The notes below the pieces were generated by a model. The model ran no database searches, had not been told where the DNA came from, and worked only from the letters and a program-made list of their open reading frames with translations. A stretch of DNA of 64,000 nt from Embleya hyalina (GTDB taxonomy: Bacteria; Actinomycetota; Actinomycetes; Streptomycetales; Streptomycetaceae): positions 1 through 64,000 of the forward strand of contig NZ_BIFH01000019.1 of assembly GCF_003967355.1 (NCBI RefSeq), written 5' to 3'. The position numbers and the translations under genes were made by a program. The stretch's first letter is position 1. Each line of letters begins with the position of its first letter. Positions 1-14,796 of this stretch are shown one piece after another.

Positions 1-291
1 GCTCCCGAGGTATCGAAGATCGTCGAAACGCTTCTCGCGCCCATCGTGTCAAACCATGCCCCTCACGTCTTGTCTTCGCCGGACCGGACCCCCGGATCCC
101 GCCTCGTGTACGCCCGCGAACCGGCGCCCGTGATCACCACCCGGCCCCACCACGTCGGCGCGGCGCTCGGGATTCTCACCGACCGTGACCCGCCGACCGT
201 TCTCCTGCGACCGCACCGCCCGATACGGTGACGGACACGGACGCCTACGAGGTCCGACAATGGAGTTGTGTGCGACCTTCGGAGGAGGCCC
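1..291. other. Left edge, no gene recognised
   Basis: The first 291 bases show no supported gene. A short GTG-started frame at 46-231 has no recognisable content. The ribosome site of the devR-like gene lies at 280-287. Confidence 0.4.
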
Positions 292-954
292 GTGTCGACA
301 TCGCCCATCCGTGTGTTCCTGCTGGACGACCACGAGGTGGTTCGCAGGGGCTTGGCCGACCTTCTCGGCGGTGAACCCGACATCGAGGTGATCGGCGAGT
401 CGGGTTCGGCCGCCGAGGCGGCCCGGCGCATCCCGGCGCTGCGTCCCGATGTCGCCATTCTCGACGGGCGGCTGCCGGACGGCAGCGGCATCGACGTGTG
501 CCGCGAGGTGCGTTCGCGTTTCCCCGAGATCAACGCGTTGATCCTGACCTCGTACGACGACGAGGACGCGCTGTTCGCGGCGATCATGGCCGGCGCGGCG
601 GGCTACGTGCTCAAACAGATCCGCGGCCGGGACCTGATCGCCGCCGTCCGCACGGTCGCCGCCGGACAGTCGCTGCTCGACCCGGCGGTGACCACGCGCG
701 TCCTCGAACGGGTGCGACAGGGACCGGCCGCGGAGCCGGGGCCGACCGGTCTCAGCGAGCGGGAACAACAGGTCCTGGAGCACATCGCCCAGGGTCAGAC
801 CAATCGAGAGATCGCCGAGAGCCTGGGCCTGGCGGAGAAGACCGTCAAGAACTACGTTTCGGCGGTTCTGAACAAACTCGGCCTCGAACGCCGGGTCCAG
901 GCGGCGGTGTACATGACCGAGTTGCACCAGGGCAACGAGCGGCATCGGACCTGA
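292..954 (+). CDS. devR: DevR/DosR-like LuxR-family response regulator
   Basis: This is a NarL/LuxR-type two-component response regulator of 220 aa. The receiver domain has the acidic pair Asp12-Asp13 and phospho-acceptor Asp58 in the LDGRLPDG segment. The C-terminal LuxR helix-turn-helix contains EKTVKNYVS, which matches the recognition helix of mycobacterial DosR as I remember it. Similarity to DevR/DosR of mycobacteria and OsdR of Streptomyces extends over the whole length. The GTG start at 292 is chosen because GGAGGAGG lies just upstream. No sensor kinase is present in the window; it may lie to the left or elsewhere. The neighbouring 25 kb has the content of a DosR regulon, so this is inferred to be its activator. 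The 3' end overlaps the convergent CBS gene by 110 bp. Confidence 0.9.
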   Translation: MSTSPIRVFLLDDHEVVRRGLADLLGGEPDIEVIGESGSAAEAARRIPALRPDVAILDGRLPDGSGIDVCREVRSRFPEINALILTSYDDEDALFAAIMAGAAGYVLKQIRGRDLIAAVRTVAAGQSLLDPAVTTRVLERVRQGPAAEPGPTGLSEREQQVLEHIAQGQTNREIAESLGLAEKTVKNYVSAVLNKLGLERRVQAAVYMTELHQGNERHRT

Positions 955-1582
955 GTCCGTGGGTGACCTTCTCGACGCCGTCCACGGCGGCGGAGAGCCG
1001 CACCACCACGTCGACGAGGGTGGGGTGGTCGACCTCGCCCGTGAGATGTACGACGGCGTCGCGCACCTCGACCCCGATCGTTCCGGGCTCCAGGCACAGC
1101 GCCTCGCCGAGGACCTCACGCTCGATCTCGGCGCGGATCTCCGCGTCCGATCGCACGAGGGCGCCCAGCAGGTCGCAACGACTGACGATGCCCACCAGTC
1201 GCCCGGAACGGTCCACCACAGGTAGGCGCTTGACGTGGTGGCGGTCCATCAGTCGAGCCGCCCACAGGGTGCTCGACGTCGTCGTCACGGTGATCACCGG
1301 AGCCGTCATCAGCCCCCGGGCGGTCAGCGCCTCTTCGGGTGGCGCTGCCACGTCTTCCCGACCCGAGTCCCGCCGTGTCCGCGACATCCCGGTGCCGGCG
1401 ACGCGCACGTGCAGCAGGTCCGCCTCCGAGACGATGCCGAGCAGCCGATGGGCGTCGTCCACCACCGGAAGCGCACTCACCTGCCAGGTCTCCAGCACCC
1501 CCGCGATGTCACGGAAGCGCGCGCCCGAGCCGACGGTGACGACGTCACGCGTCATCACGTCCCCGATCGTGCCGTGTGTCAT
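845..1582 (-). CDS. CBS-pair protein with C-terminal BON domain (copy 1)
   Basis: The 245-aa protein begins MTHGTIGDVMTRDVVTV. It has two CBS motifs (roughly residues 5-60 and 85-140) and then a BON domain with the signature VRDAVVHLTGEV. CBS pairs bind adenosyl ligands; the role of the BON domain in soluble proteins is uncertain. The start at 1582 overlaps the stop of the flavodoxin-like gene in an ATGA junction, and GGGAGG lies upstream. A paralogue sits at 11256-11957. CBS proteins such as Hrp1 belong to the mycobacterial DosR regulon, and the upstream promoter has two putative DevR boxes. The last 35 or so codons run antisense into the devR-like gene and encode a low-complexity tail. Confidence 0.85.
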   Translation of the reverse strand: MTHGTIGDVMTRDVVTVGSGARFRDIAGVLETWQVSALPVVDDAHRLLGIVSEADLLHVRVAGTGMSRTRRDSGREDVAAPPEEALTARGLMTAPVITVTTTSSTLWAARLMDRHHVKRLPVVDRSGRLVGIVSRCDLLGALVRSDAEIRAEIEREVLGEALCLEPGTIGVEVRDAVVHLTGEVDHPTLVDVVVRLSAAVDGVEKVTHGLRSDAARCPGATRSCTPPPGPGVRGRVCSEPPKRSS

Positions 1583-1830
1583 GTCGTACCTCCCGTCGTG
1601 GGCGTTCGCGGAACGAGCTCGGCGGCGATGCCGTCGGCCCACGCCTCGATCTCGGTCCGGTTCCGGAAGTCGCCGTACCGCCCCCCGACCGGACGGAGGA
1701 ACAGCCGACCCCGGAAGGCACGCGGGCCGACCCGCGCGTGCAGACCGCGCCCGCGCAGGCGCTCTGCGATGCGGTGGGCGATTGCCCGCGTACCGCCGTG
1801 CGCGCTCGCGTACGCGATGAGGACGTTCAC
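1579..1830 (-). CDS. Internally deleted flavodoxin-domain protein
   Basis: The 83-aa product keeps the flavodoxin N-terminus (VLIAYASAHGGTRAIAHRIA, the FMN-phosphate loop and helix 1) and the usual C-terminal block (GDFRNRTEIEAWADGIAAEL). The central half, which should hold the isoalloxazine-binding loops, is missing; related actinomycete proteins are about 160-180 aa. The reading frame is intact, begins with GTG after GGGAGGTG, and is the first gene of a unit with the CBS gene. FMN binding is doubtful. It may survive only as a translated leader for the CBS gene. Confidence 0.7.
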   Translation of the reverse strand: MNVLIAYASAHGGTRAIAHRIAERLRGRGLHARVGPRAFRGRLFLRPVGGRYGDFRNRTEIEAWADGIAAELVPRTPTTGGTT

Positions 1831-1888
1831 CGTGTGTCACCTCCCGGGTGGACACCCTCAGCATGCGCGTGTCGGCGAAGGCGTGACA

Positions 1889-1924
1889 GGGCCGCGTTGC
1901 CCGGCGTCCGGGGCCGTTCGGCCC
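1889..1924 (-). promoter_or_regulatory. Two putative DevR boxes, flavodoxin/CBS promoter
   Basis: GGGCCGCGTTGCCC (1889-1902) and the perfect palindrome GGGCCGTTCGGCCC (1911-1924) lie 22 bp apart start to start and 59 bp upstream of the GTG at 1830. The same arrangement with nearly the same bases recurs at 12054-12089 before the second CBS gene. They could also serve the divergent gene at 2101. Assignment to the DevR-like regulator is inferred. Confidence 0.6.
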
Positions 1925-2100
1925 GGGTGTGTCCCGCGTCCCGATGCGCCACCAGTCCGCGCCACCCGGAGTGGGCCGGCGCGCGGCGGCTCGAACGAAC
2001 GGGCGTACGGGCTCGGACGAGTCATCTCCGGAGCGACGTTCGGCCCTTCTGCGGGCCTGTCGTCGGCGGGCAGGGTGGGACGCGACCCAGGGGAGGGATC

Positions 2101-2754
2101 ATGCGTCGACGGGGGCTGAAGATCGTGATGACCGAGTCGCACACGGGCGGCTGCGAACCGGTCGCGGGCGAGCTGACCGCGGCCGGGCACAGCGTGCTGC
2201 GCTGCCACGGGGGATCGGCGGTCGATTCCGAGGCACCGTGTGTGGCCTGGACGGCGGGGGGTGCGTGCCCACTGCTCGCACCGGACGTCGACGTCGTCGT
2301 GGACGTGCGCACCGGGGCCGGGCGGCAGACGGCACGCGAGCAGGGCGCGATGTGCGCGCTCGTGGCCGGTGTGCCGCTGGTGGTCTGTGGACCCGTCGAC
2401 ACCCTCGGCGCGGCCGGGACGCTGTCGCGCGCGGACGTGGTGTGCGGGCCGGCGGACGTCGAGGCCGCGTGCCATCGCGCGTTCTCCCCCGTCGGCCCCA
2501 CCGCGCACCGGGTGGTGGCGCGTGCGGTGTCCCGCGCGCTCGCCGGGGTGACCGCGCCCGCCGACGTGCACGTCGACCTGACCGCGCGCGAGAGCGTCGT
2601 CGTCGCCGACATCACGGTCGCCGCGTCCCCGACGGCCACCGGCTTCCGTCGGGTACGAGGTGCCGTCCGGACGGCCCTCGCCCCCTTCACCCCGACCTGG
2701 CCGTATGTCCCGGTGACGCTGTATCACCGCACACCCGGAATCCGGCACGAGTGA
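2101..2754 (+). CDS. Unrecognised 217-aa protein of the hypoxia island
   Basis: I do not recognise this family. The protein is soluble, with no signal peptide or membrane segment. It starts MRRRGLKIVMTESH and has alternating hydrophobic strands and Gly/Ala-rich turns (VPLVVCGPVDTLG), suggesting an alpha/beta fold. Four of its five Cys fall in the first half. GGGAGGG lies 3-4 bp before the ATG, a short but usable spacing. It is divergent from the flavodoxin/CBS unit and shares the intergenic region holding two DevR-like boxes, so coregulation is possible. Codon use matches its neighbours. Confidence 0.7.
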   Translation: MRRRGLKIVMTESHTGGCEPVAGELTAAGHSVLRCHGGSAVDSEAPCVAWTAGGACPLLAPDVDVVVDVRTGAGRQTAREQGAMCALVAGVPLVVCGPVDTLGAAGTLSRADVVCGPADVEAACHRAFSPVGPTAHRVVARAVSRALAGVTAPADVHVDLTARESVVVADITVAASPTATGFRRVRGAVRTALAPFTPTWPYVPVTLYHRTPGIRHE

Positions 2755-2807
2755 TCCCGCCGAACACTTCGCAAGCCTCCTCGGGCCCGGCCGTCTTCCG
2801 TGCGAGC

Positions 2808-2821
2808 GGGTCCAACGGCCC
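2808..2821 (+). promoter_or_regulatory. Putative DevR box upstream of acetate kinase
   Basis: GGGTCCAACGGCCC is the exact reverse complement of the box before the decayed stress-protein gene at 24898. It lies 208 bp before the acetate kinase start. No good partner is seen 22 bp away. A separate palindrome, GGACCCGGGTCC, lies at 2871-2882. Confidence 0.45.
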
Positions 2822-3028
2822 TGCCGGAATCCGCGCCGGGGCGGAACCGTCGACAAGTGTCCGGAGGTTTGGACCCGGGTCCGTTCGAGGGAGGTCACCG
2901 GTCGCGGGTCGCGTCCCGGAACGGGTGACGCCCGAACCCGTGCGCGTCTCGGTCGCCGAGAGTGCGCGGCGGATGCGATCCCCGTGTCCGCGCATCGAAT
3001 CCAGATCCATCGTGAGGGAGTACACGTG

Positions 3029-4141
3029 ATGAGCCCGGATCGGGTCCTTGTCGTCAACGCGGGGTCGTCGACGGTGAAAATGTCGGTACTGGAGCCGAAC
3101 GACACGGTCGTGTGCGCGTCGACCATCGAGTGCCCCGACGAGATTCCGGACGGGGCGGTTTCCGGATTCCTGCGCGAAGCCGGCCCCGTCGACGCGGTCG
3201 GTCACCGGGTGGTGCACGGTGGGGCGGAGTTCACCGGCGCGACCCGGCTCGATCCGTCGGTGTTCGCGCGGATCGCCGGCCTCGCGCCGTTGGCGCCGTT
3301 GCATCAGGGGCGGGCGCTCGCGGGGATCGACGCGGTTCGCCGGGCGCTGCCGGGCGTGCCGGCGGTCGCCTGCTTCGACACCGCGTTCCACCGCACGCTG
3401 CCGGCGGAGGCGAGTACGTACGCCCTGCCGGAGGACTGGCGCACGAAATGGGGGCTGCGCCGGTACGGCTTCCACGGTCTGTCGCACGCGTACGCCGCCC
3501 GGCGTGCCTGCGAACTGGCGGGCGTGGACCCGGCGTCGGCGCGGGTGGTGAGCTGCCATCTGGGCGCGGGGGCGTCGCTGGCCGCCGTACGCGGAGGTGA
3601 GTCGGTCGACACGACCATGGGGTTCACCCCGGCCGAAGGGTTGGTCATGGCGACCCGGGCGGGCGATGTCGACCCCGGCCTGATCCTGTGGCTCCAGCGC
3701 CGGGGGGTCACCGTCGACGACCTCGAACAGGCGCTGGAACACGGCGGGGGCATGGCGGCGCTCGCCGGGCACGGCGGGGACATGCGGGCCATCCGCGCCG
3801 CGGCCGAGGCCGGCGATCGGCGCGCCGAAATCGCCCGCCGGATCTACGCCTACCGCCTCCGCGCGAAGATCGCCGCCATGGCCGCCGCGATGGGCGGTCC
3901 GGACGTGCTCGCCTTCACCGGGGGAGTCGGCGAACACGACGACGCCATCCGGGCCGACGCCGTCGGCGAACTCGCCTTCCTGGGCGTGCGCCTCGACCCG
4001 CGCGCCAACGCCGAAGCACACGGCGACGCCGACGTGGGCGCCCCCGACGCCCCCGTCCGCACGCTCGTCGTCACCGCTCGCGAGGACGTCGAGATCGCCC
4101 GACAGACGCGTTCACTGGTCACCTCCGAGAACGGCCAGTGA
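3029..4141 (+). CDS. ackA: Acetate kinase
   Basis: Acetate kinase interconverts acetyl phosphate plus ADP with acetate plus ATP. The 370-aa protein has the family signature VVNAGSSTVKMS at the N-terminus, the HRVVHGG segment, the conserved DTAFHRTLP and RYGFHGLSH blocks, the phosphate loop CHLGAGASL and the adenosine-binding FTGGVGEH. It is slightly shorter than the usual 400 aa. The ATG at 3029 follows GAGGGAG; a GTG three bases earlier is also possible. With the phosphoketolase at 17816 it would complete a route from sugar phosphates to acetate and ATP under low oxygen. Confidence 0.95.
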   Translation: MSPDRVLVVNAGSSTVKMSVLEPNDTVVCASTIECPDEIPDGAVSGFLREAGPVDAVGHRVVHGGAEFTGATRLDPSVFARIAGLAPLAPLHQGRALAGIDAVRRALPGVPAVACFDTAFHRTLPAEASTYALPEDWRTKWGLRRYGFHGLSHAYAARRACELAGVDPASARVVSCHLGAGASLAAVRGGESVDTTMGFTPAEGLVMATRAGDVDPGLILWLQRRGVTVDDLEQALEHGGGMAALAGHGGDMRAIRAAAEAGDRRAEIARRIYAYRLRAKIAAMAAAMGGPDVLAFTGGVGEHDDAIRADAVGELAFLGVRLDPRANAEAHGDADVGAPDAPVRTLVVTAREDVEIARQTRSLVTSENGQ

Positions 4142-4268
4142 CGTCCCCCGGCAACGCGGCATCGACACTCCAGGACCTGCGTCGGCGACTCGCGCCTGTC
4201 GCGGCCTCGACGCGCGTCGGGACGTCCCGGCAGCACCTGGCACCGATGGTCCCGTCCACGGTGCCGCC

Positions 4269-4304
4269 GGGACGGTCGGTCCGGTGCTCAGGGCCGTCCG
4301 GCCC
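4269..4304 (+). promoter_or_regulatory. Two putative DevR boxes before a universal stress gene
   Basis: GGGACGGTCGGTCC (4269-4282) and GGGCCGTCCGGCCC (4291-4304) are 22 bp apart start to start and end 71 bp before the ATG at 4375. The second is a near-perfect palindrome. Confidence 0.6.
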
Positions 4305-4374
4305 TGTCCGGGGTCCGCCGCGAGCGGGACGGTGGGCGCGAGGCGCCACCCGCTCGTGCGAATGGAGATGTGAC

Positions 4375-5283
4375 ATGGACCGGATACCGCTCGTCGTCGC
4401 GGCGACCGACGGCTCGCCCGAGGCGACCGCTGCCGTGATCGAGGCCGCCGACGAAGCCGCCCGTCGGGGCGCGGAGTTGGAGATCGTGTTCGCCTGGGAG
4501 GGGTCGGTGCACGAGCGGTACGCGGGGTACCGCGAGGTGCTGAGCGACCACGTCGAACGGATCCGCCGGGAGGCCGCCGACGTCGCGCGCTCACGGCAGC
4601 CGGGGATCGGGACGCGTTCCCTGGTCGTGCACGACGCCCCCGTCGCCGGATTACTGGAGGTGGCCAAGCGGGCCGACCTGCTGGTCGTGGGCAGTCGTGG
4701 GCGAGGTGCGGTCGCCGGGATCCTGCTCGGGTCGGTGAGCCTGGCCCTGGCCGCCCGGGTGCCCTGCCCCGTCCTGGTGGTCCGCAGCCGCGTACACCCC
4801 GGGCGTGCGGTGGCCGTCGGCGTCGCCGGCGAGGAAAGTCGACGCGCGCTGGAACGGGCCTTCGCCGAGGCCCGGGCGCGCGACGTGGGCGTGATCGCGG
4901 TGCACGCCTGGGACTACCCCGAGATCCCGAGAGCGTTGTGGGAGGCGCGCGGAGCCGAGTCGCCCTACCACCGGGCCGAGGAGTTCGCGCGCCGAGTACT
5001 CGCCACGGTGGTTTCGCCGCTGCGGGAGGCAAACCCGCGGATGCCGGTCGAGGAGCGCGTCGTGCGGTCCGGCGCCGCCGCCGCGTTGCTCTCGGCAACG
5101 CGGGACGCGGGCCTGATCGTCGTCGGGCGGCATGCTTCGCCGCACCACTTCGGGCCCCGCCTGGGACACGCGACGACCGCGCTGCTTCACCACGCCCACG
5201 CACCGCTCCTGGTCGTGCCGTCGGATCCACCCGACGGCCTTGGCTCGTGGGCGGCCGGAACGAGCCGACCGGAAGTCGGCTGA
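4375..5283 (+). CDS. Tandem universal stress protein (UspA family)
   Basis: The 302-aa protein has two UspA domains (about residues 1-140 and 145-295). Domain 1 begins PLVVAATDGSPEA and ends with the ATP-binding GSRGRGAVAGILLGSVS followed by CPVLVVR. Domain 2 keeps the hydrophobic core but has a variant loop, VGRHASPHHFGPRLGH. Tandem Usp proteins such as Rv2623 are abundant DosR-regulon products that bind ATP and slow growth. The ATG follows GGAG. It converges on the hydrogenase operon. Confidence 0.92.
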   Translation: MDRIPLVVAATDGSPEATAAVIEAADEAARRGAELEIVFAWEGSVHERYAGYREVLSDHVERIRREAADVARSRQPGIGTRSLVVHDAPVAGLLEVAKRADLLVVGSRGRGAVAGILLGSVSLALAARVPCPVLVVRSRVHPGRAVAVGVAGEESRRALERAFAEARARDVGVIAVHAWDYPEIPRALWEARGAESPYHRAEEFARRVLATVVSPLREANPRMPVEERVVRSGAAAALLSATRDAGLIVVGRHASPHHFGPRLGHATTALLHHAHAPLLVVPSDPPDGLGSWAAGTSRPEVG

Positions 5284-5362
5284 TCGGGACGCCGGGAGAC
5301 GAAGACCCCCGGGTACGTGTATCCGGGAACCGAGCCGCAGTGGTCTTCCGGGCACCGTGCCG

Positions 5363-6742
5363 TCAGCGTGCGGGGCCGGCTCGGTCCACGGTCAGGTCGA
5401 GAAAGTGGGCGGAGCAGGAGATGCACGGGTCGTGATTGCGGATCACGCGTTCGCACAGGGCGGTCAGCGCGGCGTCGGTCGGGTCGCCGGCGTCCAGCCG
5501 GTCCTGGACCTGACGGCGCAGGTCCTCTTCGATCGCCCCCTGGTTCTGTGCGGTGGGCGGGACCAGCACGGCGTCGGTGACGGTCCCTCGCGCGTCGAGG
5601 GTGTAGCGATGGTAGAGCAGGCCGCGTGGTGCCTCGGTGGCGCCGTGACCGGTGCCGGGGCGCGGTGGCACGGGGACGGCGGGACGCAAGGGGGGTTCGT
5701 AGGACGCGATCAGACGCAGCGCCTCGTCGACCGCGTAGAGGACCTCGACGGCGCGGACGATGATGCTGCGGAACGGGTTGCGGCAGACCGCGGCCTGTCG
5801 GGGATCGGCCAGCCCGGCGTCCAGGGCGGCCTGGAGCGCGAGCGGGGAGAGCCAGCGCCCGCTGATGGCGTACCGGGCGAGTGAACCGGTCAGGTGGCGG
5901 CGGCCGTCCAATCGGGAGTGCAGCGCCGTGGAATGCGGCACTTGGTGTTCGACGACGTGATCGCCGAACGTGGGAAGGGCGAACGTGCGGGTGGGCGGTG
6001 CCCGGTTGCCGTCCGGGCGCGGCCCGGCGGTGCGCGGGGCCGGCATGACCGTGGGCGTGCCGGACTCGATGGCGTAGGTTCCGGGTTCCGACAGGGCGAG
6101 GAGGTCGTGGTCGCATTCGGCGTCGGGGAACTCGAAGCCGGCCACCCAGCGCACCGTCTGTGCGGCGTCATCGCGTGCCCGAAGCAAAGTCTCCGCGAGG
6201 GGGCGTAGTTCGGCGACGGTCGGGACGCGGTGGAAGCCGCCGAGGCGGACGTTGACGGGGTGGATCGCCCGGCCGCCCAGCAGTTCGAGGATCGTGTTGC
6301 CGGCCTGCTTGAGCCGCAGGCCGCGTTCGACGTCGCTGCGGTGGGTGCGGGCCAGGTCGATGGCGCTGTCCCGGCCGAGGAAGTCGGGGGCGTGGAGCAG
6401 GTGGATGTGCAGGGTCTGGCTTTCGATCCACTCGCCGCAGTAGAGCAGCCGTCGCAGGGCGGCGAGTTGTCCGTCCACCACGACGCCGCAGGCGTCCTCG
6501 ACCGCACGGCAGGCGCTCAACTGATAGGCGACCGGGCAGATCCCGCAGATCCGTGAGGTGATGTCGGGCGGCTCGGTGTAGGAGCGTCCGCGCAGGAGGG
6601 CCTCGAAGAAGCGCGGGGGTTCGTAGATCGCCAGCCGGGCGTGGGTGACCCGGTCACCGATCAGGTTCAGGCGCAGTGCGCTCTCGCCCTCCACCCGGGA
6701 CAGCGAGCCGACATGCAGCACACGCGAGCCGCGATGAGTCAC
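5363..6742 (-). CDS. hydA: [NiFe] hydrogenase large (alpha) subunit, group 3b type
   Basis: The 459-aa protein carries both nickel-ligand motifs: [11 protein letters not shown] near residue 64 and [13 protein letters not shown] near the C-terminus. Only 13 residues follow the final His, as expected of a precursor trimmed by an endopeptidase after that residue. It forms the catalytic core with the small subunit upstream. Cytosolic group 3b enzymes couple H2 to NADP(H) and can also reduce sulfur. The GTG start overlaps the small-subunit stop (GTGA), with GAGGAGG upstream. It is the last gene of a five-gene operon. The Hyp assembly proteins are not in the window. Confidence 0.93.
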
Positions 6743-7545
6743 CGGAGTTCCTCCTCGTCGCGGGAGGCCGCGTCGAATTCCTCGGCGGCGGTGTTGAAGG
6801 TGCGCAACACACGCACCACGTCGAGAGTGTCCATGCCGTCGCGGCGAAGCAGCGGGACGAACGCGGGGAGGTTCGTGGAGTCGGAGGGACCGAAGCAGCC
6901 GTAGCAGCCGCGCCCCATCGTGGGGCAGAGCGCGCCGCATCCGGCGTGGGTGACCGGGCCGAGACAGGGGGTTCCGTGGGCCACCGTCACGCAGGTGGTG
7001 CCGCGCTGCTTGCACTCGAAGCAGACGCTGTGTCGCGGTACACCGGGTGTGCGCCCGGCCAGGTGGGCGGTGATGACCTCCAGCAACTGGCCGCGATCGA
7101 TGGGGCAGCCGCGCAGCTCGAAGTCGACGGGGACATGGGCGGCGATGGGGGTGGAGGTGGCCAGGGCGGCGACGTAGTCCGGCCGGGCGTAGACGACGGC
7201 CTGGAACTCGGCGACATCGGCGTAGTTGCGCAGCGCCTGCACACCGCCGGCCGTCGCGCAGGCGCCGATGGTCACCAGGCGTCGCGAGACGGCCCGCACG
7301 TGCCGGATCCGTTCGACGTCCCGGGGCGTGGTGACGGATCCCTCGACCAGGGACAGGTCGTAGGGGCCGGGCGCGGTGGCACTGGACGCTTCGAGGAAGT
7401 GTGAGATGTCGACCTTTTCGGCGATGCCGAGGAGTTCGTCCTCGCAGTCCAGCAGGGTGAGCTGGCAGCCGTCGCAGGAGGCGAACTTCCATACGGCGAG
7501 TGTCGGACGCCGGGGGGCGCCGCCGGGCGTCTCGTCGGTGGGCAC
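6739..7545 (-). CDS. hydD: [NiFe] hydrogenase small (delta) subunit
   Basis: The 268-aa protein begins with the proximal-cluster motif [12 protein letters not shown]. It continues with [20 protein letters not shown] and a Cys-rich C-terminal half ([28 protein letters not shown]) that would hold further [4Fe-4S] clusters. There is no twin-arginine signal, which fits a soluble group 3 enzyme. The GTG start lies one base after the stop of the flavin subunit, with GGGAG upstream. It passes electrons from the NiFe site to the Fe-S and flavin subunits. Confidence 0.93.
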
Positions 7546-7546
7546 G

Positions 7547-8344
7547 CTACAACTCCCGGACCATCAGCAGAGGTTCGGCGCGGGTCCAGCCGACGACGGG
7601 GCCGTCGCGGCAGAGCAGCAGGGGGCCGAGCTGGCAGTGGCCGCAGTGTCCGGTGCCGCAGTGCATCGTGCGCTCCAGGGAGACCCGGATCCGGTCCGGG
7701 TCGACGCCGCGGTGCACCAGGTCGGCGGCGGTGGCCCGGATCATCGGCTCGGGACCGCAGATGAACGCCGCGGTTCGCGGCGGCTCGAAGTCGGCCCGGT
7801 CGATCAACGTCGTCACCAGGCCGACCTCTCCGGTCCACGCGGGGCCGGCTCGATCGACGGTGACGCGGACCCCGGCCGCCGCCTGCCAGGGCTCGCCGCA
7901 ATAGAGGAGGTCGTCGGGCGTCCGTCCGCCGATCAGCACGTTCAGGCGCCGGTAACGCTCGGGTGTGGCGAGTGCGGCCAGTACGAGGGGCCGCAGCGGT
8001 GCCAAGCCGATGCCCCCGGCCACCACCACCAGGTCGCGGCCTTCGGCCTCGGAGAGTTCCCAACCGGTGCCGAAGGGGCCGCGCACCCCGACGGTTCGGC
8101 CGATTCGCACGTCGTGCAGCGCGCCGGACACGGCTCCGACGGTGCGCACGGTGTGTGCCAGGCGGGGACCGTCGATGTCGCAGACCGACAGCGGGATGTC
8201 GCCGACGCCGAAGGCGTACACCATGGCGAACTGCCCCGGAGCGAAAGGCGGCAGGGCCGCGTCGGCGGGTTCCAGGACGATCGTGGCGGTGTCGGGAGTG
8301 TCGACCCGGTGTGCCACCACGCGGTAGGGGACGGGGACGGTCAT
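7547..8344 (-). CDS. hydG: Hydrogenase flavin/NAD(P) (gamma) subunit
   Basis: The 265-aa protein belongs to the ferredoxin-NADP reductase superfamily. It has an FAD-binding beta barrel (residues 1-100), a nucleotide-binding [23 protein letters not shown], and a C-terminal [2Fe-2S] motif [13 protein letters not shown]. The layout matches HydG of group 3b hydrogenases, the site of NAD(P)H exchange. The ATG overlaps the stop of the preceding cyclic-nucleotide-fold gene (ATGA). Confidence 0.92.
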
Positions 8345-8799
8345 GGTGTGCCGCCGCCGGGGAACCCGTACAGGTCGAGCAGGCGGGTGCGCGTCGCCTT
8401 CAGGCGGCGTGCGATCACCTCGGCGACGCAGCGTGTCACCGCGAGTCCGAAGGCCGGGTCCTCCGCACAGGCGAGGCGGACCGGCTCCGCGTCGAACTCG
8501 TAGGCGGTGACGGCGGCGTGGCACCGCGCGCCCAGATGCCACCGGTAGGGTTCGAACATCCAGGACCACCCCAGCAGGTCGCCTTCCCCCAGCGTCTCCA
8601 CCACGGCGGCGCGGCGGCCCGGGACATGGATGTCCAGCGCGACCAGGCCCGAGCGGATGAGCCAGAAACGATCGGCGGCGCCGGCCTCCTCGAAGACGCG
8701 GGTCTCGGCGGGAAAGCATGCCTCGCGGGCGAAGGTGAGCAGTCGATCGCGGTGGCCGGGGGCGAGGGCACCGAGGAAGCCGTGCCGGACCACACTCAT
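8341..8799 (-). CDS. Cyclic-nucleotide-binding-fold protein without HTH (hydrogenase operon)
   Basis: The 152-aa protein is a single cNMP-binding beta roll with a C-terminal helix and no DNA-binding domain. It contains DRFWLIRSGLVALDI and ETLGEGDLLGWSWMF. The phosphate-binding cassette reads GWSWMFEPYRWHLGARC instead of the usual GE-RTA pattern, so canonical cAMP binding is doubtful. It overlaps both neighbours by 4 bp inside the hydrogenase operon. A paralogue lies at 10775-11245. From memory, a similar gene occurs in mycobacterial group 3b operons. A role in modulating the enzyme complex is inference. Confidence 0.85.
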   Translation of the reverse strand: MSVVRHGFLGALAPGHRDRLLTFAREACFPAETRVFEEAGAADRFWLIRSGLVALDIHVPGRRAAVVETLGEGDLLGWSWMFEPYRWHLGARCHAAVTAYEFDAEPVRLACAEDPAFGLAVTRCVAEVIARRLKATRTRLLDLYGFPGGGTP

Positions 8800-9953
8800 C
8801 CCGCCTCCTGCGCCGTGCTCCGCCCGCGTTCCCGGTTCAGCGCGTGGGCTTCTTCGGTGATGTCGATGCCGACCGGGCACCACACGATGCAACGACCGCA
8901 TCCGACGCAGCCGGAACTGCCGAATTGGTCGTACCAGGTGCCGAGTTTGTGGGTGGCCCACTGCCGGTATCGGCTGCGGGGGGAGTCGCGGACCGGGCCG
9001 GTCGGCACATGGGTGAAGTCCCGATCGAAGCAGGACTCCCAGTGTCGCCACCGCTCGGCGTGGTCACCGGTGAGGTCGGTGACGTCCTCGACGGTGGTGC
9101 AGAAGCAGGTCGGGCACACCATCGTGCAGTTGCCGCAGGTCAGACAACGCGACGTCACGTCGTTCCAGCGTTCGGCGTCCAAGGTCTCGCGCATCAGTGT
9201 GCGCAGATCGACGAGCGGCATCGTCCGACCCATCCTGTCGGCCGCCTCGGCGACCCGGTCCCGGGCGGCGGACCGGGTGGCGGAGTCGGCGGCGCGGCTC
9301 GGCAGTTCGGCGAGGACGGCCGCTCCTTCCCCGCTCCCGGCGCGGACGAGGAAGCGGTGGCCGTCACCGTCGAGCACCTCGGTCAGTGCGAGGTCGTAGC
9401 CCGGTCCCACGGCCGGCCCGGTCTCCATCGACACACAGAAGCACGTGGCGCCCGGCTCGGTGCACTCCACGGCCACCAGGAACGCGCCGTCCCGACGGCG
9501 GCGGTACGCCGAGTCGCCGTACCGCCCGCCCGTCAGCACGCGGTCCTGTACGGCGATGGCTCGCAGGTCGCAGGGGCGCACCCCGAGAAACGCGTAGGCC
9601 GGCACCGGGGTGTCGTCCGCGGTCACCACGATCGTGCCGTCGGCGTCGCGATCGGCGCTCCACTCCCGTACCCGCGGCGGATGCAGGAACGTCTTCCACG
9701 ACTGCGGGCCCGCGCTGTGCGCGAACGCGGCGCCGTCGTCGCGCGCGACCAGTCGATAGCGTCCGGCCTCCAGTTCCACTCCCCAGCCATAGGGCAGTTC
9801 CGCGCCGCCGGAGATCTCCGCGAGGATGATGGCACCGTCGCGGACGGTGGGCCCGACGACCGTGCGCCCTCGCGCGGCGAGGATGGTGATCAGGGCGTCC
9901 ATGCCGTCCTTGTCGATCACCGCGTCGGCGCTGTCCCGCTCGCACCCCGTCAT
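8796..9953 (-). CDS. hydB: Hydrogenase Fe-S (beta) subunit
   Basis: The 385-aa protein is an HydB/AsrA-type electron-transfer subunit. The N-terminal region includes FLGVRPCDLRAI and TCFCVSM. Two [4Fe-4S] motifs follow: CLTCGNCTMVCP near residue 270 and GCVGCGRCIVWCP near 345. It links the small subunit to the flavin subunit. The ATG at 9953 follows GGAGG and is the first gene of the operon. The promoter lies in the 174-bp gap shared with the divergent protease gene; I see no convincing DevR box there. Confidence 0.92.
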   Translation of the reverse strand: MTGCERDSADAVIDKDGMDALITILAARGRTVVGPTVRDGAIILAEISGGAELPYGWGVELEAGRYRLVARDDGAAFAHSAGPQSWKTFLHPPRVREWSADRDADGTIVVTADDTPVPAYAFLGVRPCDLRAIAVQDRVLTGGRYGDSAYRRRRDGAFLVAVECTEPGATCFCVSMETGPAVGPGYDLALTEVLDGDGHRFLVRAGSGEGAAVLAELPSRAADSATRSAARDRVAEAADRMGRTMPLVDLRTLMRETLDAERWNDVTSRCLTCGNCTMVCPTCFCTTVEDVTDLTGDHAERWRHWESCFDRDFTHVPTGPVRDSPRSRYRQWATHKLGTWYDQFGSSGCVGCGRCIVWCPVGIDITEEAHALNRERGRSTAQEAG

Positions 9954-10127
9954 TCGCCGACCTCCACATGCCGATGCCGATCTCCACCCGAGTATGGTCA
10001 CGATCCGTGGTCGAACCGTGCTCGACGGTCGTCGCCCCTGCGCCGGATGGTGCAATCGTTCCCTCGTACGGAGTCCGTCGGGGCGCGGTGCGGCCGTCGG
10101 GCGACCCGAACGGGGACAGGAAGCGGC

Positions 10128-10694
10128 ATGAGAGCGGGCGGGCGGGTCGTCGTGGTCGGTGTCGGCAACGAATACCGGCGCGACGACGGTGTCGGGTGGG
10201 CGGTGGTGGCCCGTCTGGCCGAGCGGGTCACCCGGTCGGCGTGTCGGGCCGATGTCGTGCTGCGGACGTGCGACGGCGACCCTGCCCGGTTGATCACGTT
10301 GTGGGACGCTGCCGACTTCGCCGTCGTGGTGGACGCGGCGCACGCCCACCCGGGACACCCCGGCCGGGTACACCGCCTGGAACTCGACGCGAGGCAACTG
10401 CCCCGGGGCGGCGGCAGCACGAGTTCGCACGGCCTCGGCCTCGGAGAGGCCGTCGAACTCGCGCGCGTACTGGACCGCCTGCCCGGGCGGCTGGTCGTCT
10501 ACGCCGTGGAGGGCGCCGACCACAGCCTGGGCAGCGGAATGTCGGGGCCCGTGGCGGCGGCGGTGGAGCCGGTCACCCGACGGATCGCGCAAGAGATCGC
10601 CTTCGCATGCCGACCGGTGCCCGATCCCGTCGACAGGGCCCTTCACGGTGGGCGTCGGGACGGTTGTACCCGATGCGGGCCTTCTCGTCGGTGA
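10128..10694 (+). CDS. Hydrogenase maturation endopeptidase
   Basis: The 188-aa protein is a HyaD/HycI-type peptidase. It has VVVGVGNEYRRDDGVGW with the nickel-sensing acidic residue, DAAHAHPGHPG, and the SSHGLGLGEAVELA segment with its conserved His. These proteases cut the C-terminal tail of the large subunit after nickel insertion, which fits the short tail on the product of 5363-6742. It is transcribed divergently from the hydrogenase operon. The last 30 residues are Arg/Gly-rich and not conserved. Start chosen at the ATG before RAGGRVVVVG. Confidence 0.9.
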   Translation: MRAGGRVVVVGVGNEYRRDDGVGWAVVARLAERVTRSACRADVVLRTCDGDPARLITLWDAADFAVVVDAAHAHPGHPGRVHRLELDARQLPRGGGSTSSHGLGLGEAVELARVLDRLPGRLVVYAVEGADHSLGSGMSGPVAAAVEPVTRRIAQEIAFACRPVPDPVDRALHGGRRDGCTRCGPSRR

Positions 10695-10774
10695 GTCGCG
10701 CGCGGGAGCGCGCGATCCGACGGGACGCCGTCGGATCGGGCTCGGGGCGGCGAACGCGTCGAGACCGCGCCGTC

Positions 10775-11245
10775 TCAGCGCTCCGCGAGGTCGTCGTTCG
10801 CCGCATGGTGTGGTCCGTACAGGTCCAGTAGTCGCAGTCGACTCGCCTGGAGGCGGTCGGCGATCACCTGCGCGCACACGAGGTTGATCGCTCGGCCGAA
10901 GTCCGGATCGCGTTCGCATTCGGCCCGCACCGCGCCCGCGTCGAACTCCACGGCCCGGACGGGGCCGACGGCCCGGCCGCCCAGGTGCCATCGGTAGGGA
11001 GGGAACAGCCAGCTCCAGCCGACGAGTTCGCCCGGTCCCAGCGTCTCCACGGTCGCCGGGTGCCCGCCGGGGACGTGCACGTCCAGGCAGACGGAGCCAC
11101 CCTCGACGAGCCAGAAGCTGCGGGCCGGTCGGTCCTCCTCGAACAGGCGCGTGCCGGGCTCGAACGTGACGGGCCGGCCGAAGGCCAGGAGCCGATCCAG
11201 GTGTTGTTTGGGGATGAGGCCGATGCGACCGGAGACGTGGAACAC
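10775..11245 (-). CDS. Cyclic-nucleotide-binding-fold protein without HTH (copy 2)
   Basis: The 156-aa protein is a paralogue of the hydrogenase-operon gene at 8341. Shared blocks are FWLVEGGSVCLDVHVPGG, ETLGPGELVGWSWLF and the C-terminal RLRLLDLYG. Again there is no DNA-binding domain and the ligand cassette lacks the usual Arg-Thr-Ala. The GTG follows GAGGAGG, which sits at the end of the CBS-BON gene 10 bp upstream, so the two are cotranscribed. The function is unknown. Confidence 0.82.
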   Translation of the reverse strand: MFHVSGRIGLIPKQHLDRLLAFGRPVTFEPGTRLFEEDRPARSFWLVEGGSVCLDVHVPGGHPATVETLGPGELVGWSWLFPPYRWHLGGRAVGPVRAVEFDAGAVRAECERDPDFGRAINLVCAQVIADRLQASRLRLLDLYGPHHAANDDLAER

Positions 11246-11255
11246 GGTGTCCTCC

Positions 11256-11957
11256 TCAACGGCCGGGCGAGCGGCGACCGAAGTGCGCCGGGCCGGGCGT
11301 GATGTGGCTGTCGTCGAAGTCGAAGGTCAGGGTGTGGTTCACGCTCTCGACGCCGTCGACGGCACGACACAGCCGCACCACGATGTCGATGAGACTGCGG
11401 TTGTCGACCGCCCCGGACAGACACACCACGGCGTCGCGCACGTCCACCACGATCGTGCCGGGCTCCAGCCACAGGGCGCCGCGCAACACGTCGTGCTCGA
11501 TCTCGGACCGGATGTCCGCGTCCGGGCGCAGGAACGTGCGCAGCAGGTCGCAGCGGCTGACGATGCCGATCAGGCGACCGTCGGTGTCGACCACGGGGAG
11601 GCGCTTGACGCGACGGCGGTCCATCAGGCGCGCGCCGCGCAGTGTGCTGGAGACCGGGTCCACACTCACCACGGGGGTCGTCATCAGGTCGCGTGCGGTG
11701 TGACCGTCACCCGTGGTGTGCCGGTTCGTCAGTCGGCGCAGGCCCGTCGGGAAGTGGGCGTCCTCGGCCTGCTCCACCTGGGCGCGCAGCAGGTCCGCCT
11801 CCGAAACGATGCCCAGGATCCGCCGCTCGGCGTCGACGACCGGCAGGGCGCTGATCCGCCGGGCATCCAACGCGGCGACGATGTCCCGGAACTCGGCGTC
11901 GGGGCCGACGGTGGCGACGTCACGGGTCATGACGTCCTCGATCCTGCGATGCAACAT
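11256..11957 (-). CDS. CBS-pair protein with C-terminal BON domain (copy 2)
   Basis: The 233-aa protein starts MLHRRIEDVMTRDVATV. It has two CBS motifs, each with a GIVSEADLL or GIVSRCDLL segment, then a BON domain (VRDAVVCLSGAV). It parallels the copy at 845-1582 along its whole length except the tail. It heads a two-gene unit with the cyclic-nucleotide-fold gene. The promoter has the same paired boxes as copy 1, which points to duplication of promoter and gene together. Confidence 0.87.
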   Translation of the reverse strand: MLHRRIEDVMTRDVATVGPDAEFRDIVAALDARRISALPVVDAERRILGIVSEADLLRAQVEQAEDAHFPTGLRRLTNRHTTGDGHTARDLMTTPVVSVDPVSSTLRGARLMDRRRVKRLPVVDTDGRLIGIVSRCDLLRTFLRPDADIRSEIEHDVLRGALWLEPGTIVVDVRDAVVCLSGAVDNRSLIDIVVRLCRAVDGVESVNHTLTFDFDDSHITPGPAHFGRRSPGR

Positions 11958-12053
11958 GCGAACCCCCTGGTCGATACGGCGCGTCGCCGAGGTGTGGTGG
12001 TGACGTCCTCGGCCGGACACCACGAGCCTGTCGCCGTTGCGAGTGCCGGGACA

Positions 12054-12089
12054 GGGCCGCTTTGCCCGGTGGGCCGGGTCGTTCGGCCC
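12054..12089 (-). promoter_or_regulatory. Two putative DevR boxes, second CBS promoter
   Basis: GGGCCGCTTTGCCC (12054-12067) and GGGTCGTTCGGCCC (12076-12089) are 22 bp apart and 97 bp from the ATG at 11957. The pair differs from that at 1889-1924 by one base in each box. Confidence 0.6.
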
Positions 12090-12234
12090 GGTCCGGCCCG
12101 CGCCACGGTGTCGGTGTGCCGTACGACCCGAGCGGGCGCGGCGACGGCCACGCCGCGAGCGTTCGGCAGGCGCGGCTCCGCCACGGCGCACCGCCCCGTC
12201 CGGCCGGGCTCGGGCAATCGGGTGATGCGTGGAA

Positions 12235-12747
12235 TCAGGCGTCCGGTGCGGGGACGAACACCACCGGTGTGGCGCTGTGGCGCAGGCAGTACAACCCGGT
12301 GGGCCCGGGAATCGTGGGGCATTCGATGCCGCTGGTACCCAGCACCAGCAAGCGGGCGTCCCGCGCACGGGCGACCAGGACCTCGCCCGCCGCGCCGTGC
12401 AGCGGGGTGGCCACGATCCGCTCCGGCGGGATCGGCACCCGCACCAGGTTGGCCAGCGCGTGCTCCAGGCGCTCGCGGGCCACGGACAGCCGCGCGTCCG
12501 GCCGGTCCAGGGTCGGGCGTTCGGGGTCGGCGTCGGTCCACGCCGCGACCACGTCCAGGACCACGCCGAGTTCGGCGGCCTCGCGTGCGGCCCAGCGCAG
12601 GGCGACGGCGGATCCGTACGAACCGTCCAAGCCCACCACGATCCGGCCTTCCGGGCGGTTCTTCGCGCCCTCTTCGGTGGGCACGACGCTTCGTCGAGGC
12701 GCCACGCCCGTCGTTTCCCGGTCGAACCGGGTGCCGAGCGATTCCAT
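12235..12747 (-). CDS. Single-domain universal stress protein
   Basis: The 170-aa protein has one UspA domain preceded by about 35 charged residues. The domain begins RIVVGLDGSYGSAVALRWAA and ends LLVLGTSGIECPTIPGPTG followed by TPVVFVPAP. The C-terminal loop lacks the full G-x9-G-S/T consensus, so ATP binding is uncertain. The ATG follows AAGGAG. It is divergent from the tandem stress protein at 13140, with a 392-bp gap between them. Confidence 0.85.
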   Translation of the reverse strand: MESLGTRFDRETTGVAPRRSVVPTEEGAKNRPEGRIVVGLDGSYGSAVALRWAAREAAELGVVLDVVAAWTDADPERPTLDRPDARLSVARERLEHALANLVRVPIPPERIVATPLHGAAGEVLVARARDARLLVLGTSGIECPTIPGPTGLYCLRHSATPVVFVPAPDA

Positions 12748-13139
12748 GTCGAACTCCTTCGGGTGGTCTTGGTGGTCGTGGGTGGCGAGGCGGTGCCGAA
12801 CGACGGGGCTTGTCGAGCCGATCAGCCGTGGCGCGACGGCGGAAGCGCGGGGAGGTCGTGGAAACCGGTGCGCCGCCGCTCGTCCTCATCGCGCTCGCCT
12901 CCTGTGGCTCCGGGGGCCGCGCCCGCGCGGTTCGCCCTGTCTCCACCATCGGGCCCGCGCAACCCCCGGGCACAGGGCCGGTGGGGATGGTCGACCGGGC
13001 CGAAAGTCCCGGTCCGGCGGTACCGGGCAGCCCTGTGTCCTTCGGTCGAGCGGGCGCACGCTGAGGACGAGGGGTCGATCGTAGGTCGCGAACCCGACTT
13101 CGTCGCCCGGGACGTCGTTCGTCGACGATTGGACAAGTC
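12748..13139. promoter_or_regulatory. Divergent stress-gene promoter region with DevR-like boxes
   Basis: This 392-bp gap holds no credible gene. GGGCCGAAAGTCCC (12997-13010) is the copy in the window closest to the mycobacterial DosR core GGGACT-N-AGTCCC. A half-conserved partner, GGGCCGGTGGGGAT, lies exactly 22 bp to the left (12975-12988). The pair could serve both the gene at 12747 (minus) and the gene at 13140 (plus). Confidence 0.55.
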
Positions 13140-14024
13140 ATGAGCACCGGAACCCATCTCCCCGACCTCGGGGTCCTGGTCGGCTACGACGGCTCGCCCG
13201 GTGGCAAACGCGCGCTCGTGTGGGGTGCCCGCGCCGCCGCCGACGCCAAGACGCCGCTCCACCTGACGATGGCCATCCCGGAAGCCGCTCTCGGCGGCCA
13301 CGCCCGCGCGGACGAGGTCCGCAGGGGCGCCCTGGCCCTCCTGGAAGAGGCGGCGGTCCGGAGCCGGGCGGCACATCCGCACCTGACCGTCGAGACTTCG
13401 CTGTTCGAGGGATCGGCCGCGGACACGATCCTGGAGGCAAGTCGGCGGGCGGAGCTGATCGTGCTCGGCACTCGGGGCCACGGCGGTTTCGCCGGGTTGC
13501 TGCTCGGGTCGGTGTCGCTGCGGGTGTGCGCGCACACGACCTGTCCCGTGGTGGTCGTGCCCGAGGCAGCCGACGAGGTGGAGACGCCGAGCATCGTCGT
13601 GGGCGTCGCCGATCACAGCGACGCGCCGGCGATCGAGTTCGCCGTGGAACGGGCTCGGCTCATCGGCGGCAGGGTTGTTCCCGTCCACGTGTGGACGCTG
13701 ACCATGGCCGGCTACTTCCCGGGCGTGGTGGCGCCGCCGCTCGGGGACCCCTTGGAGACGGCGGCGACCCACGACCACCTGTTGACCGAGATTCTGGAGC
13801 CGATCCGAGCTCGCACGCCGGACGTCACGATCGAGGCGATGGTCACGACCGGCGCGCCCGCCTACGCTCTGATCAGTGTCTCCGCGCACGCGGACCTGCT
13901 GGTGGTCGCCGCCCACCGAGCACACGGCCCCTTCCCGATGCGCCTCGGCCCCACCACCCACGCGGTACTCCATCACGCGACCTGTCCGGTGGCCCTGGTG
14001 CCGATACCCGCCACCGCGTCATGA
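13140..14024 (+). CDS. Tandem universal stress protein
   Basis: The 294-aa protein has two UspA domains. Domain 1 (residues 8-145) begins GVLVGYDGSPGGKRAL and carries the full ATP loop LGTRGHGGFAGLLLGSVS with CPVVVVP. Domain 2 (about 150-290) has VGVADHSDAPAIEFA and a degenerate loop, VVAAHRAHGPFPMRLG. The stop overlaps the start of the Rv1733c-like gene (ATGA), so the two are translationally coupled. Confidence 0.92.
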   Translation: MSTGTHLPDLGVLVGYDGSPGGKRALVWGARAAADAKTPLHLTMAIPEAALGGHARADEVRRGALALLEEAAVRSRAAHPHLTVETSLFEGSAADTILEASRRAELIVLGTRGHGGFAGLLLGSVSLRVCAHTTCPVVVVPEAADEVETPSIVVGVADHSDAPAIEFAVERARLIGGRVVPVHVWTLTMAGYFPGVVAPPLGDPLETAATHDHLLTEILEPIRARTPDVTIEAMVTTGAPAYALISVSAHADLLVVAAHRAHGPFPMRLGPTTHAVLHHATCPVALVPIPATAS

Positions 14025-14635
14025 ACGGCTCCGGGCCGCGAGCACACCGAACGCTCGCCCGCATGCGACGCCGGATCCGCGCCCTGCTCGGCCGTGAGCC
14101 GCTGTACCGGCGATGTGACGTCGTCCATCTGCGGTCGACGCTCGCGCTGACGCTCCTGGCCCTGATTCTGGTCCCGTTGGTCGTTTTGGCGGCCGTCCAT
14201 GCCCAGGCCCGCTCCGGCGAGGCGACCCGGAATCGCCAACTGGCGCACAAGCACCAGGTTTCCGCCGTACTGCTGGTCAAGCCACCCACGGTGGCCGAGC
14301 CCGGCGCCGAGACGGTGTCGGCCGGCGTGCGATGGGTCGCGGCCGACGGCACCGCCCACACCGACGACGCGCCGGTGCCGCTCGGCGGGGAGGCGGGCGA
14401 CACGACTCGAATCTGGCTCGACGTCGAGGGCCGGCCCACGACGCCCCCACCGACCCACAGCGCGATCGTCGACAACGCGATCACCACCGGCATGCTCGTG
14501 CTCGCCGCGTCGCTCCTGGTCACCGCAGGGGTCTTCGCCTTGGAGCGACTGCTGATCTCCCGCCGGCGGGACCACGGTTGGGAGCGTGAGTGGGCGGCGG
14601 TCGAGCCGGGTTGGACCGGTCGCATCGAGCACTGA
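14021..14635 (+). CDS. Rv1733c-like two-helix membrane protein
   Basis: The 204-aa protein has a basic N-terminus, a membrane helix at about residues 39-60, an extracytoplasmic domain of about 90 aa (GVRWVAADGTAHTDDAPVP and WLDVEGRPTTPP), and a second helix at about 153-175 followed by an Arg-rich end. This layout matches the Rv1733c family, a conserved membrane component of the mycobacterial DosR regulon with unknown function. It is coupled to the upstream tandem stress gene by a 4-bp overlap. Confidence 0.82.
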   Translation: MNGSGPRAHRTLARMRRRIRALLGREPLYRRCDVVHLRSTLALTLLALILVPLVVLAAVHAQARSGEATRNRQLAHKHQVSAVLLVKPPTVAEPGAETVSAGVRWVAADGTAHTDDAPVPLGGEAGDTTRIWLDVEGRPTTPPPTHSAIVDNAITTGMLVLAASLLVTAGVFALERLLISRRRDHGWEREWAAVEPGWTGRIEH

Positions 14636-14796
14636 GGGCACGAGGGGCCGACGATCGGAGCACGCACGGGAAGCGAACGCGACACCATACCGGCGGCCGG
14701 AAGCCGTGACACGGTGTAACGCCGTGCTGATCGTCGGGTTCACCGCCCGTGGCACGCGAGCGCGCGACCCGGTGGAGGGCGCGCGTACCCTGAAAG

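Follow-up and report, generated by a model that had tools for sequence, protein, structure and literature searches.

HoxI, a subunit of the soluble hydrogenase of Cupriavidus necator, is described in the accessible part of its report as a homodimer seated on the diaphorase module and as the NADPH activation site of the oxidised enzyme, 40 uM NADPH having activated the six-subunit form only (PMC3702609). The group 3b [NiFe] hydrogenases, which are widespread, have been counted as four-subunit enzymes, to judge from the available sections of the accounts of Nitrospina gracilis (four holoenzyme subunits, with six accessory proteins besides; PMC3578206) and of Hyd3 of M. smegmatis (PMC2799521). 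Two recent papers each place a gene with a cyclic nucleotide monophosphate (cNMP)-binding domain in a 3b cluster: that of the alphaproteobacterial methanotroph 'M. acidophilus' 29, where the gene is called HoxI (PMC12319191, 2025), and that of Rhodococcus equi 103S, where no function is given (PMC13332983, 2026). In the portions available, both are gene mentions offered without a test, a family definition or a cross-phylum pattern; from their descriptions, the two genes would belong to the family characterized below. A literature search returned no experiment on a 3b-associated cNMP protein within the text it could reach, subscription literature lying outside its scope. Here we analyse a locus of Embleya hyalina (Actinomycetota) in a window of 64,000 nucleotides, the start of contig NZ_BIFH01000019.1 (C19 in our numbering) of a 12.05-Mb genome, with a G+C content of 67-73% in 4-kb steps. 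The locus is a five-gene operon in which a gene for a cNMP-fold protein, designated cNMPa, stands between hydB and hydG of a 3b-type hydrogenase.

We argue that the 3b enzyme probably has in this embedded protein a dedicated component or control unit that has been overlooked. An earlier note, made from the letters of this DNA, had suggested that it may serve the enzyme as a subunit, structural or regulatory, and not as a transcription factor. That proposal is supported by the lack of a helix-turn-helix (HTH) domain, the loss of the cAMP contacts, a recurrent gene order, overlapping reading frames, and sequence distances that track those of HydG. On balance we favour the more specific reading that cNMPa is a dedicated accessory or regulatory fifth component of the 3b hydrogenase, HoxI-like in its working. 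To the earlier account we add the breadth of the arrangement and the tryptophan cassette, the co-inheritance of the gene with hydG and its apparent loss in places, the existence of solo paralogs, and the question whether the family is kin to HoxI. The genes of the operon, in the order of reading, and the cassette within cNMPa are as follows.

8796 to 9953, minus strand: hydB (beta), 4Fe-4S dicluster electron-transfer subunit, 385 aa, ATG at 9953; Pfam Fer4_22, 111 bits.
8341 to 8799, minus strand: cNMPa, embedded cNMP-fold gene, 152 aa, no HTH; Pfam cNMP_binding, 33.7 bits (cut-off 27.5).
8539 to 8571, minus strand: cassette GWSWMFEPYRW, cNMPa codons 77-87, in place of the phosphate-binding cassette (Glu to Trp78, Arg to Trp87).
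7547 to 8344, minus strand: hydG (gamma), FAD/NAD(P)-binding, Cys-rich 2Fe-2S-type motif, 265 aa; Pfam NAD_binding_1 and DHODB_Fe-S_bind.
6739 to 7545, minus strand: small (delta) hydrogenase subunit, GTG start, 268 aa; Pfam Oxidored_q6, 77.6 bits; NCBIfam ShyD/HydD.
5363 to 6742, minus strand: large (alpha) catalytic subunit, GTG start, 459 aa; Pfam NiFeSe_Hases, 74.2 bits; NCBIfam ShyA/HydA.

By Pfam and NCBIfam all four subunits expected of a 3b enzyme are present (beta with FeS, gamma with FAD/NAD(P), the small delta and the large alpha), and the translated large subunit retains both its N- and C-terminal CxxC nickel ligands (RICGIC and DPCISCSAH). Sulfhydrogenase models of NCBIfam rank first for the large subunit, the small subunit and HydB (sulfhyd_HydB 118 and ShyB 112 bits, with AsrA close at 111), and the AsrB model ranks first for HydG, all with scores below the equivalog cut-offs. 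From the subunit set and these ranks we infer a group 3b [NiFe] hydrogenase, predicted to be soluble and NAD(P)-linked. The five minus-strand genes follow one another as the earlier note had read them: the junctions are 4-bp overlaps at hydB/cNMPa and cNMPa/hydG (ATGA in both) and at small/large subunit (GTGA), with a gap of one base between hydG and the small-subunit gene.

The arrangement is not peculiar to Embleya. A first scan, with one genome per species, retrieved 14 relatives, and in 13 cases the gene stands between hydB and hydG: seven in Kitasatospora/Streptomyces, one in Saccharopolyspora, two in Nitrospinota, one in an Ignavibacteriae metagenome-assembled genome and two in Acidobacteriota. 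Later scans used a profile of the family. In 296 genomes of Actinomycetota it found 29 copies above 100 bits, 14 embedded and 15 solo. A HydB score of at least 200 bits was reached in 28 of these genomes, of which 14 carry the embedded gene; both cut-offs (100 bits for cNMP, 200 for actinobacterial HydB) were chosen after the score gaps were visible. At E 1e-30 actinobacterial HydB matches extended to 84 genomes, the 56 below the cut-off (107-162 bits) possibly representing other 3b-like operons; the HydB query carried one extra residue before its ATG. Among 149 genomes of Acidobacteriota the embedded gene occurred in all nine with HydB (E <= 1e-50), one locus having 385 bases between the end of the HydB match and the cNMP start. 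HydB was searched in these two phyla, and the counts for the next two start from cNMP matches. In the phylum of the Ignavibacteriae genome, 14 of 198 genomes matched and all 14 loci were embedded; in Nitrospinota, 33 of 77 genomes matched and the gene was embedded in 20 of 20, these being the best 20 of 34 matches. Proteobacteria were sampled through plasmids only: annotated plasmids of Burkholderia, Paraburkholderia and Pandoraea (Burkholderiaceae) showed the hydB-cNMP-hydG order in three cases of three, as did two Rhodococcus plasmids. The order was thus found in at least five phyla, and a recurrence of this kind places the arrangement beyond chance. Two further genomes, both of one family, pair a cNMP match scoring 86-90 bits with a weak HydB-like match some 3 kb away on the same strand of one contig (G043:C6:70974-75282 and G250:C39:2941-7104); this may be a related arrangement involving a different enzyme.

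As to its fold, a Pfam scan of cNMPa yields cNMP_binding and no HTH. An AlphaFold2 model built from 16 sequences (the window and related loci; mean predicted local distance difference test score 87.2) comprises a jelly roll, a long C-helix at residues 115-144 and a low-confidence end, the structure stopping after that helix. The best solved structural match is 3mdp (VIA Z 20.1, 128 aligned residues, 1.9 A), followed by CRP/CLP-type and other cNMP domains. The model thus portrays cNMPa as a CRP-type jelly roll with a dimer helix and no DNA-binding domain, in agreement with the domain content first proposed for it. The 3mdp protein, Gmet_1532 of Geobacter metallireducens, a putative cyclic nucleotide-binding protein, is also the best PDB profile match (82.4 bits); its cassette, GVSSLIKPYHY, has V and S at the positions of Trp78 and Trp80 and Tyr at that of Trp87.

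In CRP-type domains, Glu and Arg of the phosphate-binding cassette contact cAMP. We aligned the cassettes of the family, from 70 embedded sequences and 24 solo ones (the latter including four distant rows, L050, L102, L107 and L109), with those of CRP-type proteins. The family consensus is GWSWLxxPYxW, as against G-E-L-S-L-F-D-P-G-P-R in a CRP-type protein of the window's own genome (L001). Trp78 occupies the Glu position in 64 of 70 embedded and 23 of 24 solo sequences, and Trp87 the Arg position in 63 of 70 and 19 of 24; G77, W78, S79, W80, P84 and W87 are kept in most copies of both kinds. The absence of the cassette Arg had been noticed from the single sequence; the alignment puts Trp87 in its place and shows the Glu to be replaced too. 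A conserved replacement of this kind, as opposed to decay, suggests that either the ligand has changed or the pocket has been filled, and we read the cassette as a ligand or fold element common to embedded and solo copies.

These features bear directly on the supposition that cNMPa is a classical cAMP- or cGMP-responsive regulator, or a fragment of a CRP/FNR transcription factor. The Pfam score above cut-off would suit it, as would a Foldseek search in which GlxR is top and the first ranks are GlxR/CRP structures, several of them with cAMP; among the embedded sequences, however, Glu stands at position 78 in none of 70 and Arg at position 87 in one of 70, and a DNA binder is refuted by the missing HTH. 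We regard this explanation as highly improbable. A classical cyclic nucleotide receptor was rejected on the replacement of both cassette residues in cNMPa and in nearly all embedded members, and a CRP/FNR transcription factor on the lack of a C-terminal HTH in a protein of 152 aa.

A second explanation gives cNMPa a purely structural or assembly role, in which a ligand-free jelly roll assembles or stabilises the HydB-HydG half without any signalling. The bulky Trp at both cAMP-contact positions in most members could fill the pocket, some 3b operons lack the cNMP gene, and the accessible text on the Cupriavidus enzyme records that HoxI readily leaves the core of the soluble hydrogenase (PMC3189943) and that a four-subunit form is active (PMC3702609). 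Against this, the pocket loop is strongly conserved in embedded and solo copies, which suggests a ligand or a critical contact. We rate a purely structural role as rather unlikely.

Other positions distinguish the two kinds of copy. R49 is kept in 64 of 70 embedded vs 13 of 24 solo sequences, T69 in 69 vs 10, D142 in 69 vs 13 and Y144 in 69 vs 17, contrasts for which the Fisher values ignore relatedness. The four residues are candidate hydrogenase contacts, with conservation as would be expected of a docking surface, relatedness being uncorrected.

The embedded gene also appears to diverge with its operon. In pairwise distances over 66 loci, the correlation is 0.83 between the cNMP protein and HydG and 0.67 between the cNMP protein and HydB, next to 0.75 between HydB and HydG; none of 2000 permutations reached the 0.67. 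The hydB-cNMP junction overlaps in 42 of 68 loci, with start codons chosen by script. As far as these sequence comparisons go, the cNMP gene evolves as though it belonged with the genes of the enzyme.

A third explanation would make cNMPa a free cytosolic sensor, merely co-expressed with the hydrogenase and directed at some other partner, which is presumably how the solo copies work. One such copy lies in the window itself, about 2 kb from the cNMPa gene and beside a gene for a CBS-BON protein:

10775 to 11245, minus strand: cNMPb, solo cNMP-fold paralog, 156 aa, GTG start, same Trp cassette; Pfam cNMP_binding, 45.3 bits.
11256 to 11957, minus strand: CBS-BON gene, 10 nt upstream of cNMPb; Pfam CBS and BON, open frame 12368-11256, start inferred (MLHRRIEDV).

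cNMPb is 55% identical to cNMPa over 139 aa, and in a cNMP tree both window copies fall in one group of 29 actinobacterial rows, 16 solo and 13 embedded (support 97 in the Shimodaira-Hasegawa-like approximate likelihood ratio test, SH-aLRT). An Embleya plasmid (L025) carries the same CBS-BON/cNMP pair; at the 17 solo loci examined, a CBS-BON gene lies near five and a response regulator like that at 268-954 of the window near four. Most solo copies from Actinomycetota (13 of 15) come from the window's own taxonomic family (Streptomycetaceae). The company of CBS-BON genes and response regulators, the position of cNMPb just after a CBS-BON gene, and the occurrence of most solo actinobacterial copies in genomes with no HydB match speak for a free sensor; the recurrent hydB/hydG position in at least five phyla and the residues kept in embedded and less so in solo copies would not be expected of one. 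We think a free sensor improbable. Four other solo loci of the window's family (L066-L069) share a neighbourhood that we read, from sequence starts, as LysE-type, LysR-type and MFS-like genes.

Several observations weigh against a dedicated fifth component, and we set them together here. The embedded gene is lacking in 14 of the 28 actinobacterial genomes with HydB and so is dispensable; the four consecutive subunit genes of M. smegmatis Hyd3 are listed, in the available text, with no cNMP gene (PMC2799521); and no hydB-cNMP fusion occurs in the 68 loci. Solo copies make up 15 of the 29 actinobacterial and four of the 13 acidobacteriotal copies above 100 bits, so members of the family also occur outside hydrogenase operons, and 13 of the 15 actinobacterial ones (in eight genomes) come from genomes with no HydB match at E 1e-30, so that the family must also work without a 3b enzyme. 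For the Cupriavidus enzyme, the accessible report gives the four-subunit form, without HoxI, an H2:NAD+ activity of 192 vs 227 U/mg (PMC3702609); since it is nearly as active, a HoxI-like subunit need not matter for turnover. The family profile, moreover, scores Cupriavidus HoxI at 36.6 bits and GlxR-type CRP proteins (L055-L057) at 65.8-66.5. Two single operons without the gene, finally, are nested beside cNMP-positive ones in the HydB tree (SH-aLRT 97 and 100).

That tree included seven of the 14 cNMP-negative actinobacterial operons, which call for three changes, one for a clade of five and one for each of the two single operons. Nested as they are, the two look like gene losses; the loci in the trees, as in the tabulation of embedded and solo copies, were mostly found via the cNMP gene, and the positives are not a random sample. 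Three residues conserved in cNMP-positive operons are found in none of the seven negatives: HydB E289 (0.88, 69 loci), HydS R145 (0.90, 49 loci) and HydL A35 (1.00, 14 loci), in a contrast for which many columns were scanned and five of the seven negatives form one divergent clade. No HydG column separates the two sets (67 and six loci). The three sites, whose conserved residues are also absent from both nested single losses, are possible contact sites, and only a lead.

In several respects the dedicated component we propose recalls HoxI: each is a small cNMP-domain protein (167 aa for HoxI of Cupriavidus plasmid pHG1) that lacks an HTH, and each has its gene beside those of a soluble [NiFe] hydrogenase linked to NAD(P). 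The hoxI gene, by contrast, follows hoxFUYH and a protease gene instead of standing between diaphorase genes as that of cNMPa does. Its host enzyme is of group 3d (HoxFUYHI2), whereas cNMPa has HydB, HydG, HydS and HydL as neighbours. The HoxI cassette, GELGFIDQTPHS, keeps G-E and has His for the Arg, as against GWSWLxxPYxW in the family; identity to cNMPa is 26% over 82 aa. With HoxI as query, no plasmid record of the family is recovered at E 1e-3; a further cNMP match on the HoxI plasmid scores 30.5 bits to the family profile. In a quick tree HoxI falls among CRP proteins and not within the family, but its branch is long and the outgroup did not form one side of a branch; the approximately unbiased (AU) test did not reject a joint clade of HoxI and the family, which had a p-AU of 0.559 and scored 3.0 log units above the free search. 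By score the family is nearer to CRP regulators than to HoxI, and HoxI may or may not belong to it; that it works like HoxI is, by analogy, a fair hypothesis. The subunits themselves resemble those of group 3b enzymes (the HydBGDA sulfhydrogenases of Thermococcales and M. smegmatis Hyd3) in all four families, and the accessible listing for Hyd3 gives the order beta, gamma, delta, alpha (PMC2799521) as in the window, where a fifth gene is embedded.

We envisage that cNMPa most probably dimerises through its C-helix and docks on that half of the enzyme in which HydB and HydG transfer electrons, as its gene position and HydG-tracking divergence would suggest. Once docked, it might stabilise the NAD(P)H module or let a non-cyclic ligand reactivate the oxidised enzyme; NADPH would be our first choice of ligand, by analogy with HoxI. 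A more inclusive proposal, which we put forward tentatively, is that many bacterial 3b enzymes have a fifth subunit whose Trp-rebuilt pocket senses redox state or a dinucleotide such as NADPH and gates the enzyme, that it was recruited independently of HoxI, and that solo copies have been re-used beside CBS-domain proteins in actinobacterial hypoxia clusters. If a conserved fifth component does exist in many lineages, designs for purification and expression of these enzymes would have to change, and there would be a handle on how 3b enzymes alternate between producing H2 and supplying NAD(P)H. One more cNMP fold would have been turned to a role other than cyclic nucleotide binding, and the uptake of a single fold for control in two groups of hydrogenase would provide a test case.

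Upstream of the operon lies a divergent gene for a processing enzyme:

10128 to 10694, plus strand: hydrogenase maturation protease, HycI family, 188 aa; Pfam HycI, 28.7 bits (cut-off 23), start inferred.

Maturation of the enzyme is plausible, given a hypD match in the genome; this single match lies about 8 kb from a second [NiFe] large subunit on another contig (C42, 52808-63732). In 5100-11300 of the window a sigma-70 scan returned no promoters, and a terminator scan returned one terminator-like site, a level equal to that of shuffled sequence. DosR-type boxes were no more frequent than expected: one match to the strict form with three mismatches, away from hydB, vs 1.19 expected, and 81 to the loose form (at most one mismatch) vs 94.9. 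Inverted repeats of the form GGGNCNNNNGNCCC (e.g. at 12997, 17690 and 20253) number 16 exact copies in the window vs 10.0 expected, with as many in one of 100 shuffles; some lie between likely genes and none in the gap between hydB and the protease gene (9954-10127), and they are possibly regulator boxes. Elsewhere, positions 268-17271 hold by Pfam an LuxR-type HTH response regulator, two CBS-BON genes, an acetate kinase and a universal stress protein, together with a gene that we take to be GH65-like. This stretch resembles a hypoxia or dormancy gene island, and some solo cNMP copies lie in similar islands.

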